From NCBI GenBank assembly GCA_021462855.1, contig JAJTXQ010000046.1, positions 1 to 64,000 of the forward strand: DNA of 64,000 nt. Reading direction: 5' to 3'. The translations under genes were made by a program, and so were the position numbers. This document shows, in pieces, positions 44,481-47,064 of this stretch. Positions within the stretch are counted from its first letter, which is position 1, and each line of letters opens with the position of its first letter. The notes under the pieces were generated by a model. That model was not told the DNA's origin, did not search any database, and saw only the letters and a list, made by a program, of their open reading frames with translations. The stretch comes from Dehalococcoidia bacterium (lineage in GTDB: Bacteria; Chloroflexota; Dehalococcoidia; DSTF01; JACRBR01).

Positions 44481-45503
44481 CTACGCGTAGAACGTCTGCG
44501 CGATGCGCGCGGCGTAGCCCAGCAGCGCGCCCGGCTCAAGCCCATACGATGGCGGCACGAGCGTCGCCGAGTCGGCGTGCTCCCAGATCGCCGACACGCG
44601 CGCGCGCACCTCGTCGGGCGTGCCGCAGACAACGAACGTCTGCGCCATGTCATCGGTCACCAGGTCGCGCACCGACTTGTAGTCGCCGCTGCGCACGCCT
44701 GCCTGGAGCGCCTGCGCCTCCTTGCGGAAGCCGTGCGCCGCAAAGTACTCCTCGTACTGCCCGACGCCGGCGTAAAAGGCGACCGTCGCGCGCGCGTCCT
44801 CGATCGCCTGCCGCTTGTCGGGGTTCGGCGCGACGAACAGCCACATGTTGAACTCGATGTCCTCGCGCTTCCGGCCGCCCTTGTCCAGCCCGCGCTTGAT
44901 GTCGTCCATCACCTTCGTCGTCGCCCAGTCGATCGACCAGATCGGGTGGCCGAGGACGCCGTCGGCGATCTCGCCCGCCAGGCGCAGCACCGGCGTGCGC
45001 AGGCCGGCGATCCACACCGGGATCTCCGTGCGCAGCGGCGCGCCGAGCGGGTTGAACTCGCTGAAGTCGAGATGGTGGTACTCGCCGTCGTAGCGCTTCA
45101 GCTCGCCCGTGTGCGCCTTCGCGATGATCAGCCGCACGATCTCCACGACCTCGCGCATGTGCGCGAGCGGCTTGCCGTACTCCATGCCGAAAAAGCCCTC
45201 GCTCCACGACCGCACACTCGTGCCCAGTCCGAGCGTGAAGCGCCCGTTGCTGATCCGGTCGAGGTCCATCGCCGCCGCCGCCGTCTCGAACGGGCTGCGC
45301 ACGAACGCCAGCGCGATCCCCGTCGCCAGGCGCATCCGCTCGGTGACGCCGGCCGCCGTGGCCAGCGGGATGAACGGCGGGCCGTACACCTGCGGCGCGA
45401 ACACGCCCTCCAGCCCCATCGATTCGAGTTGCTTCGCCTGCGCGGTCAGCAGCTGCGCCGGCAGCGGCGAGACCACGCCCCAGTACTTCGGCTTGTTAGG
45501 CAT
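44481..45503 (-). CDS. LLM-class F420-dependent oxidoreductase
   Basis: A 340-aa luciferase-like protein, more distant from the other two. The barrel core FTLGLGTSVRSWSEGFFGMEYGKPL (about residues 87-111) and the C-terminal VVCGTPDEVRARV segment are typical of the F420-type LLM subfamily annotated TIGR03617-like in actinobacteria (family assignment from memory). I start at 45503, with AAAGGA 8 bases upstream, rather than at the longer frame. It is 20 bp from the propeller gene on the same strand and may share its transcript. Substrate unknown. Confidence 0.85.
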   Translation of the reverse strand: MPNKPKYWGVVSPLPAQLLTAQAKQLESMGLEGVFAPQVYGPPFIPLATAAGVTERMRLATGIALAFVRSPFETAAAAMDLDRISNGRFTLGLGTSVRSWSEGFFGMEYGKPLAHMREVVEIVRLIIAKAHTGELKRYDGEYHHLDFSEFNPLGAPLRTEIPVWIAGLRTPVLRLAGEIADGVLGHPIWSIDWATTKVMDDIKRGLDKGGRKREDIEFNMWLFVAPNPDKRQAIEDARATVAFYAGVGQYEEYFAAHGFRKEAQALQAGVRSGDYKSVRDLVTDDMAQTFVVCGTPDEVRARVSAIWEHADSATLVPPSYGLEPGALLGYAARIAQTFYA

Positions 45504-45646: not shown

Positions 45647-46102
45647 ATGGTGGAAGAGATGGACAGCGGCGCGCCGGAACGCACGCCGCCGGAAGACGCG
45701 GCGCCGTCACGCGTCGGCGAGCTGGAGGCGGAGGTGGCGCGGCTCACGGCGGCGCTCGGCGCAGCCGAACGCGACGCCTCGACCGCGCTCGCCGACGCCG
45801 GCGACCTGCGCGGGCTGCTCGACGCATCGGCGCGGCAGGCCGCGGACGCGGCATCGCGCTACCGCGAGGCGCTGCTGCGCGCGGAGCCGTCGCTGCCGGC
45901 GGATATGCTCGAAGGCGAAACGATCGACGAACTCGACGCCGCACTCGAACTCGCGCGCAGCATCGCCGGGCGCATCGACGCGGAGGCGCGCCGGATCGCG
46001 GCGGGCGCGACGCCGGCGGGCGCGCCGGAGCGCGGCGCGCCCAACCTCGCCGGACTCTCGCCCGAGCAGAAGATCCGCATCGGGCTCGAGCGCCTCGGCT
46101 GA
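45647..46102 (+). CDS. Coiled-coil protein upstream of capsid protein (scaffold- or cargo-like)
   Basis: A 151-aa acidic, Ala-rich protein. The start at 45647 is set by GGAGGTGGAC directly upstream. Residues 20-55 form heptads (VGELEAEVARLTAALG), a further helix spans 85-115, and a Gly/Pro-rich linker leads to a conserved-looking C-terminal helix, GLSPEQKIRIGLERLG. This is the shape of a phage scaffolding protein or of an encapsulin-type cargo with a C-terminal targeting peptide. It lies 74 bp before the capsid-like gene on the same strand, and both are flanked by minus-strand genes. Function is inferred from context only. Confidence 0.6.
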   Translation: MVEEMDSGAPERTPPEDAAPSRVGELEAEVARLTAALGAAERDASTALADAGDLRGLLDASARQAADAASRYREALLRAEPSLPADMLEGETIDELDAALELARSIAGRIDAEARRIAAGATPAGAPERGAPNLAGLSPEQKIRIGLERLG

Positions 46103-46176
46103 CCGCACGCCGCACCGACATCCGCACGCACGCGCACGACGCGCGCCGAACGCGCGCTGAAAGGAAGTGACCGCAC

Positions 46177-47064
46177 ATGGCGCTGACCCTGGCGGAGGCC
46201 GCCAAGCTCTCCAACGACATCGTCCTGCAGGGCGTGATCGAGACGATCATCCAGGACTCACCGATCTTGCAGACGCTGCCGTTTATCGAGATCACGGGCA
46301 ACGGGCTGACGTACAACCGCGAGAACGCGAACCCCGCCGTCACGTTCTTCGACGTCGGCGACACGTGGACGGAGAGCACGCCGACGTTCACGCAGATCAC
46401 GGCGAACCTCAAGATCATCGGCGGCGACGCCGACGTCGACAACTACCTGCTGACGACGCGCAGCAACATCCAGGACCTGCGCGCCGCCGTCATCCGCCTG
46501 AAGGCGAAGGCGGTGCAGCAGAAGTTCGAGGACACGTTCGTCAACGGCGACACCGGCGTCGACGCCAAGTCGTTCGACGGCGTCGACAAGCTCAGCACGG
46601 GCGGCCAGGCGATCTCGATGGGCGTGAACGGCGCGACCCTCACCCTCGCGAAGCTCGACGAATTGATCGACCTGGTGAAGGGCGGCAAACCCGACCTCAT
46701 CCTCATGTCGAAGCGCAGCCGCCGCACGCTCAACAACCTCGCGCGGTCGTCCGGCGGCTTCCTCGAAACTGACCGCAACGAGTTCGGCGAGATGGTCCAG
46801 TACTACGACGGCGTCCCCGTCGGCGTGTCCGACTACATCTCCGACGCGAAGACGGTCGGGTCGAGCAGCGACTGTTCGACGATCTACGTGATGCAGACGG
46901 GCGAGGGCGCGGTCTCCGGCCTGACGGCGCCCGGCGGGCTGACCGTCGAGACGATCGGCAGCCTGGAGACGAAGGATGCGACGCGGACGCGCGTCAAGTG
47001 GTACGTGAGCATGGCGCTGTTCAACACCCTCAAGCTCGCGAAGCTTACCGGCGTGCGCCCGTAA
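46177..47064 (+). CDS. Phage-like major capsid protein (HK97-fold type)
   Basis: A 295-aa protein resembling phage major capsid proteins: an N-terminal helix (LTLAEAAKLSNDIVLQGVIE), an extended-loop-like stretch rich in Asn/Thr (GNGLTYNRENANP, residues 42-54), a spine helix (IQDLRAAVIRLKAKAVQQKF, about 100-120), and a C-terminal P-domain-like sheet. GAAAGGAAG precedes ATG by 8 bases. No terminase, portal, protease, tail or integrase gene is found on either side. It is either a fragment of a lost prophage or a domesticated shell protein working with the coiled-coil protein upstream. The frame is intact and codon use matches the host. Confidence 0.72.
   Translation: MALTLAEAAKLSNDIVLQGVIETIIQDSPILQTLPFIEITGNGLTYNRENANPAVTFFDVGDTWTESTPTFTQITANLKIIGGDADVDNYLLTTRSNIQDLRAAVIRLKAKAVQQKFEDTFVNGDTGVDAKSFDGVDKLSTGGQAISMGVNGATLTLAKLDELIDLVKGGKPDLILMSKRSRRTLNNLARSSGGFLETDRNEFGEMVQYYDGVPVGVSDYISDAKTVGSSSDCSTIYVMQTGEGAVSGLTAPGGLTVETIGSLETKDATRTRVKWYVSMALFNTLKLAKLTGVRP

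Follow-up and report, generated by a model that had tools for sequence, protein, structure and literature searches.

Which kind of particle, if any, would a bacterium of the class Dehalococcoidia build from a single capsid gene that stands beside its own metabolic genes? The locus that raises this question lies in a stretch of 64,000 nucleotides (the window) on contig C41 of the source genome (G000, 97% complete). It comprises a gene for a major capsid protein (MCP) and, upstream of it, a gene for a coiled-coil partner. The original prediction described the capsid as isolated and proposed that the two proteins could form an encapsulin-like shell.

The capsid gene and its partner

Both genes are intact, lie on the plus strand and have the boundaries that had been predicted for them. 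The partner gene extends from the ATG at 45647 to the stop codon at 46102 (151 aa) and is followed, after a gap of 74 bp, by the MCP gene, which extends from the ATG at 46177 to the stop codon at 47064 (295 aa). A luciferase-like monooxygenase gene on the minus strand (44481..45503; Pfam PF00296, E 1.6e-56) belongs to the host flank and is outside the module of particle genes described below. In several relatives, too, such a gene is near the upstream side of the pair: in L031, L033 and L034 a gene of cluster c13 precedes it directly.

The MCP belongs to the epsilon15 gp7-type family. It matches the NCBIfam profile NF045672 (MCP_gp7_epsi_15) with 223 bits, well above the curated cut-off of 75, and the match covers residues 4-293 of the protein and positions 1-309 of the profile. 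In addition, the protein is assigned to PHROG 212 ("major head protein", E 1e-75), and in Pfam both Phage_capsid and GP7 score above their cut-offs, so that the family match is far beyond chance. The HK97 fold, which had been proposed from the letters of the gene, was borne out by the AlphaFold2 model of the single protein (mean pLDDT 80, pTM 0.75), for which Foldseek finds encapsulins, HK97 and the RcGTA capsid with E values from 5e-17 to 2e-12. In this ranking family 2 encapsulins are at the top (E 5e-17), followed by HK97 heads and the RcGTA capsid. This order favours a protein shell of the encapsulin type, in which the partner would be cargo or tag and which might stand alone or represent a second use of the capsid where the genes have become separated; the distance of the pair from the packaging genes in the window's family also suits it. 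In contrast, a sequence profile of the MCP searched against the PDB matches phage major capsid proteins alone, without encapsulins, and the partner has no recognisable enzyme domain or cargo among the Pfam, PHROG and NCBIfam profiles.

Only one copy of the MCP gene is present in the source genome. Its GC content at the three codon positions (0.56/0.43/0.97) is like that of the adjoining genes, and for the capsid the predicted host-like codon use therefore holds; the partner departs from it, being GC-richer at positions 1 and 2.

That the two genes form a functional pair is supported by their relatives: a partner homologue is recognisable upstream of the MCP in most loci, and in the 39 loci that we mapped it is always on the same strand (39/39), in 30 of them upstream at a distance of less than 300 bp. 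The C-terminus is conserved as PAGAPxR ... LSPxEKI, in which P, G, P, R, K and I are invariant in the 39 homologues, and the motif was also inspected in an alignment of seven homologues. In the window it reads PAGAPxR ... LSPxQKI (46013..46078, plus strand) and could be the capsid-binding end of a scaffold. One homologue (L039) weakly matches PHROG 233 ("head scaffolding protein", E 0.009), and the annotated scaffold of Streptomyces phage Rowa occupies the same place, directly 5' of the MCP gene. Because the conserved C-terminus and the position directly before the MCP match those of a scaffolding protein, the partner is most likely a capsid scaffolding protein. The C-terminal helix had been put forward as either a cargo tag or a scaffold tag; of these, the scaffold end fits better and the cargo tag is less likely.

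Further particle genes in the source genome

Profile searches of the organism's own genome found no gene for portal, terminase, adaptor, propeller protein or 71-aa protein on contig C41, and for these genes it is true that the window holds no phage neighbours. The capsid is nevertheless not isolated, since all five are encoded elsewhere in the genome. Terminase and portal lie at the end of contig C36, and the portal gene runs on into contig C50. The two portal halves share 28 identical residues where the contig ends overlap; therefore the gene is probably whole. The adaptor, the propeller protein (c1) and the 71-aa protein (c4) are encoded on contig C16. Each of these genes is single copy, and the module of G000 occupies three places on different contigs (C36/C50, C41 and C16). 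Because terminase, portal, adaptor and two more particle genes are present in this genome and co-occur throughout the class, the capsid is very likely part of a DNA-packaging particle with a portal vertex.

The terminase-portal locus contains some further genes. Between terminase and portal is the gene of an HTH protein (c6, L230:15546-16004) with a conserved Cys motif. This protein is similar to Mor and late activators of transcription (PHROG 836, E 3.5e-5) and is a candidate regulator of the module. 5' of the terminase sit c67, c33 and a c63-like frame, as in relatives. As a small terminase c33 is a lead only (PHROG terminase small subunit, E 0.14), and for c63, a protein of one helix considered as holin, there is no family match. 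The gyrB gene (L231:6511-8469) is found some 6 kb downstream of the portal gene. In L039 (L039:12988-14943), and likewise in L042 and L055, it directly follows c4, a hint that the old place of the cluster on the chromosome was next to gyrB.

Composition of the cassette

Clustering the ORFs around 60 relatives reveals a recurring cassette: terminase (c8), HTH protein (c6), portal (c5), partner (c2) and MCP (c0), then variable fibre-like genes, the adaptor (c3), c10, c1 (about 660 aa) and c4 (71 aa). The portal matches Pfam SPP1 gp6-like (1.5e-23) and the adaptor SU10_adaptor (1.5e-10) in searches of Pfam and PHROGs. The terminase is divergent and gives weak nuclease-domain matches in these databases; a search of the PDB with its profile gives phage terminase nucleases, and Walker A (RQxGK), Walker B and the nuclease D and HDD residues are retained, also in G000. 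For residues 31-335 of c1 a six-bladed propeller of the sugar-lectin/sialidase type is predicted (Z about 23), while model confidence is low for the C-terminal part. In 50,697 phage records c1 has no sequence match, and neither c1 nor c4 matches a known tail family in Pfam or PHROGs.

Between MCP and adaptor, or just 5' of the adaptor, each lineage has different fibre-like or unknown genes (for example L039:8263-9685, L064:11102-12781, L082:9579-10475 and L232:9901-10908). This variable region may set the attachment specificity.

Among the matches listed for 127 flanking ORFs (25 of 75 PHROG families) there is no integration, replication, tail-tube or tape-measure family, integrases included, and in 26 loci no plus-strand ORF other than c1 is longer than 700 aa. 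With the module we identified no confident candidate for a small terminase, a capsid protease or a lysis gene. Without a tail-tube or tape-measure gene among these matches, the particle would probably be short-tailed, with c1 as a surface-binding propeller.

The same set of proteins would also serve a domesticated DNA-packaging particle with another purpose, such as killing or host protection in the manner of PBSX, without productive gene transfer. PBSX is known for packaging host DNA without transferring it. The anatomy would be the same, and a propeller of the sugar-binding type together with lineage-specific fibre-like genes suits the binding of target cells in either role, killing or delivery. 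No toxin-like gene is found in the cluster, however, and the conservation of the terminase fits DNA packaging, which is compatible with both readings. We consider such a particle unlikely.

Distribution, co-occurrence and arrangement

The MCP is carried by 34 of 60 Dehalococcoidia genomes, with 85% identity within the same family and as little as about 54% in other parts of the class; in about 28 of the genomes it is full-length and without internal stop (54-85% identity). Relatives at the DNA level are nearly all from Dehalococcoidia or other Chloroflexota, the isolate Tepidiforma flava (strain YIM 72310) among them. All of the six module genes tested are present in 25 of the 60 class genomes and none in 15, and some genomes have a part of them. 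Every pair of genes is associated (Fisher p 7.5e-5 to 2e-13, calculated over the 60 genomes with kinship ignored). This bears directly on the encapsulin-like shell: portal, adaptor, terminase and scaffold are conserved together with the capsid across the class, even where the genes are dispersed, which rules it out as the main reading and leaves it very improbable in any form.

The arrangement of the module varies. Some lineages have a compact cluster of 7-11 kb, while in others the genes are found at two to four distant loci. The stretch from terminase to c4 measures 7 kb in G048, where it has housekeeping genes on both sides, and about 10 kb in G058; in G013 the genes are spread over 26 kb. 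In the window's family the module is found at two or three places. As most genomes are fragmented metagenome bins, distances between loci can be read within contigs and in complete genomes. The complete chromosome of T. flava has c1 at 1.112, the portal at 1.221, the MCP at 1.340 and the terminase at 1.343 Mb, a span of 231 kb.

A sample of 301 genomes of the phylum contains 34 with the MCP, and 15 of these are from Chloroflexota classes other than Dehalococcoidia (among them G180, G226, G234, G211, G303, G336, G145, G245 and G096; loci L316-L322, L327 and L328). At these loci a portal gene is nearby, and often terminase and scaffold genes, too. Three species of the genus g149 have one MCP copy each. 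Two far more divergent MCP copies (about 180 bits) in G123, a genome of the class, at C3:10917-11879 and C22:27660-28622, perhaps represent a true phage.

Two genomes of family f17, each a single contig of 1.5 Mb, show a reduced form (L336, G030:C1:373018-376835; L342, G106). The terminase is intact, the portal is cut near residue 276-294, and what comes directly after it is c1, starting at about residue 246, and then c4. This is a shared internal deletion by which scaffold, MCP and adaptor were lost. About 225 stretches in the virus catalogue IMG/VR encode relatives of the MCP, and the partner gene is mostly present as well in the best 80 of these 225 (L090-L169). Probably the catalogue holds many pieces of Chloroflexota chromosomes.

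The deletion that joins portal to c1 in G030 and G106, the IMG/VR stretches and the phage origin of the proteins would also be expected of an ordinary prophage, or of decaying prophage remnants scattered by rearrangement. Against this stand the distant loci, the lack of integration, replication and tail-tube genes among the listed matches, and the descent and conservation of the genes.

Descent and selection

Single-gene trees were compared with the tree of rpoB. The portal shares 14 of 31 splits with it (Mantel r 0.70 within the class), the terminase 11 of 23 (r 0.58) and the MCP 9 of 31 (r 0.36); the maximum in 1000 label shuffles was 3 shared splits (mean 0.3 for the portal). The portal and terminase trees recover host groups above the family level and the MCP tree does so less, with families f3 and f4 of the same order placed elsewhere. 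This weaker agreement of the MCP with rpoB may reflect some replacement or change of rate.

In an MCP tree with nine phages the class forms one clade (93% support), which groups with six MCPs from other Chloroflexota classes at 100%, the phages being outside. A single origin for the whole phylum is not indicated, as the MCPs of G145, G245 and G096 are outside a 79%-supported group that contains proteobacterial phages.

The dN/dS values are 0.04-0.24 for the MCP, 0.05-0.46 for the portal and 0.09-0.48 for the terminase, and somewhat above those of the MCP for the adaptor. Trees and ratios together indicate that the module is under purifying selection and largely of vertical descent, and domestication, as presumed in the original prediction, is supported by single-copy, co-inherited genes under such selection. 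Single copy, dispersal and congruence with rpoB rule out a recent prophage; for prophages in general, the intact genes conserved throughout the class, together with portal and terminase trees that follow rpoB, make this origin of the loci improbable.

Comparison with known systems

The tailed phages with a capsid of the PHROG 212 or epsilon15 gp7 type are the closest in capsid: the MCPs of Streptomyces phage Rowa, Gordonia phage Nyceirae, Pseudomonas phage Ab18 and Salmonella phage SSU5 are 39-42% identical. The gene order of Rowa (terminase, portal, scaffold, MCP, adaptor) is like that of the module. In contrast to the module, Rowa and Nyceirae possess a capsid protease, a tail terminator, a tail tube and a tape measure, none of which was found with the module. 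Its portal (25%) and terminase (31%) match only other, remote phages, and a common PHROG 212 phage ancestor for all module genes is therefore unsupported. No phage carrying the whole module was found. The adaptor matches SU10_adaptor as in the head-tail junction of phage SU10 and podoviruses, and genes for a long tail were not found; unlike in these phages, c1 and c4 have no sequence match to known tail families. With encapsulins, of which families 1 and 2 have been described (PMC8346489), the module shares the predicted HK97 fold and the encoding by the host. It differs from them by the portal, scaffold and terminase partners, and no cargo enzyme or targeting peptide was identified.

Gene transfer agents (GTAs) of the RcGTA type, the Bartonella GTA and VSH-1 of Brachyspira are recognised as viriforms (PMC9662315). 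The definition given there has six features, among them that caudoviricete-derived proteins form caudovirion-like particles, that mostly random pieces of host DNA are encapsidated, that the encapsidated DNA is delivered to other cells, that the GTA genome is not or cannot be fully packaged owing to head size, and that inheritance is mostly vertical with co-diversification with the hosts. MCP, portal, adaptor and terminase are significantly similar to caudoviricete families, and vertical inheritance is seen in the splits shared with rpoB and the MCP clade of the class, although congruence is weakest for the MCP. With a dispersal over 231 kb, joint packaging of the module is very unlikely. Three of the six features fit by sequence, and therefore we call the module a GTA-like element and not a proven GTA.

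Like known GTAs, it consists of caudoviricete-derived head and packaging genes that are fixed in the host genome, often at several loci, and have diversified with the host; VSH-1 likewise has a "divided genome", as a title cited in a 2024 review puts it (PMC11841831). It differs by its Chloroflexota host and in that the searches gave no tail-tube or tape-measure gene with the module, whose particle would therefore probably be short-tailed. A relation to any known GTA was not seen in the searches made, and we found no earlier report of this system in Chloroflexota in the open-access literature.

A proposed GTA-like particle of Dehalococcoidia

The reading that we prefer, with a probability of about two in three, is an ancient domesticated, probably short-tailed phage particle that packages host DNA, that is, a GTA-like viriform of Dehalococcoidia. 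In such a particle the partner would scaffold the assembly of the HK97-fold shell around the portal vertex. The large terminase subunit, encoded at the second locus with the portal and the HTH regulator, would pump DNA through the portal, and the adaptor, the propeller-bearing c1 and the 71-aa c4 from the third locus would form a short tail that closes the vertex; attachment would be the task of the lineage-specific fibre-like proteins. With genes this far apart, and with none for integration or replication among the matches listed, such a particle could scarcely take up the complete module, and most of the DNA packaged would be that of the host; it would have relatives in other Chloroflexota classes.

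Whether it also delivers this DNA to other cells is a narrower claim. A functional GTA, unrelated to the characterised ones, of early origin in Chloroflexota and inherited mainly vertically in Dehalococcoidia, would have genes that drift apart over the chromosome because the host and not the particle keeps them. For this we see the chances as balanced.

The 2024 review raises the questions of how common GTAs are outside the alphaproteobacteria and by which features they can be told from phages (PMC11841831). Here the module contributes an independent case, from a phylum that branches deeply and is abundant in the environment, and every stage is visible in it: the compact 7-11 kb cluster, the partly split and the fully dispersed module, and the remnant with a shared deletion. 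As far as the open-access literature shows, a GTA in Chloroflexota would be previously unreported. The 225 IMG/VR stretches suggest that genes of bacteria are entered as viral in virus catalogues. If functional, the particle would provide a route of gene exchange in the slow-growing, mostly uncultured Dehalococcoidia, and in the cultured carrier T. flava this is directly testable.
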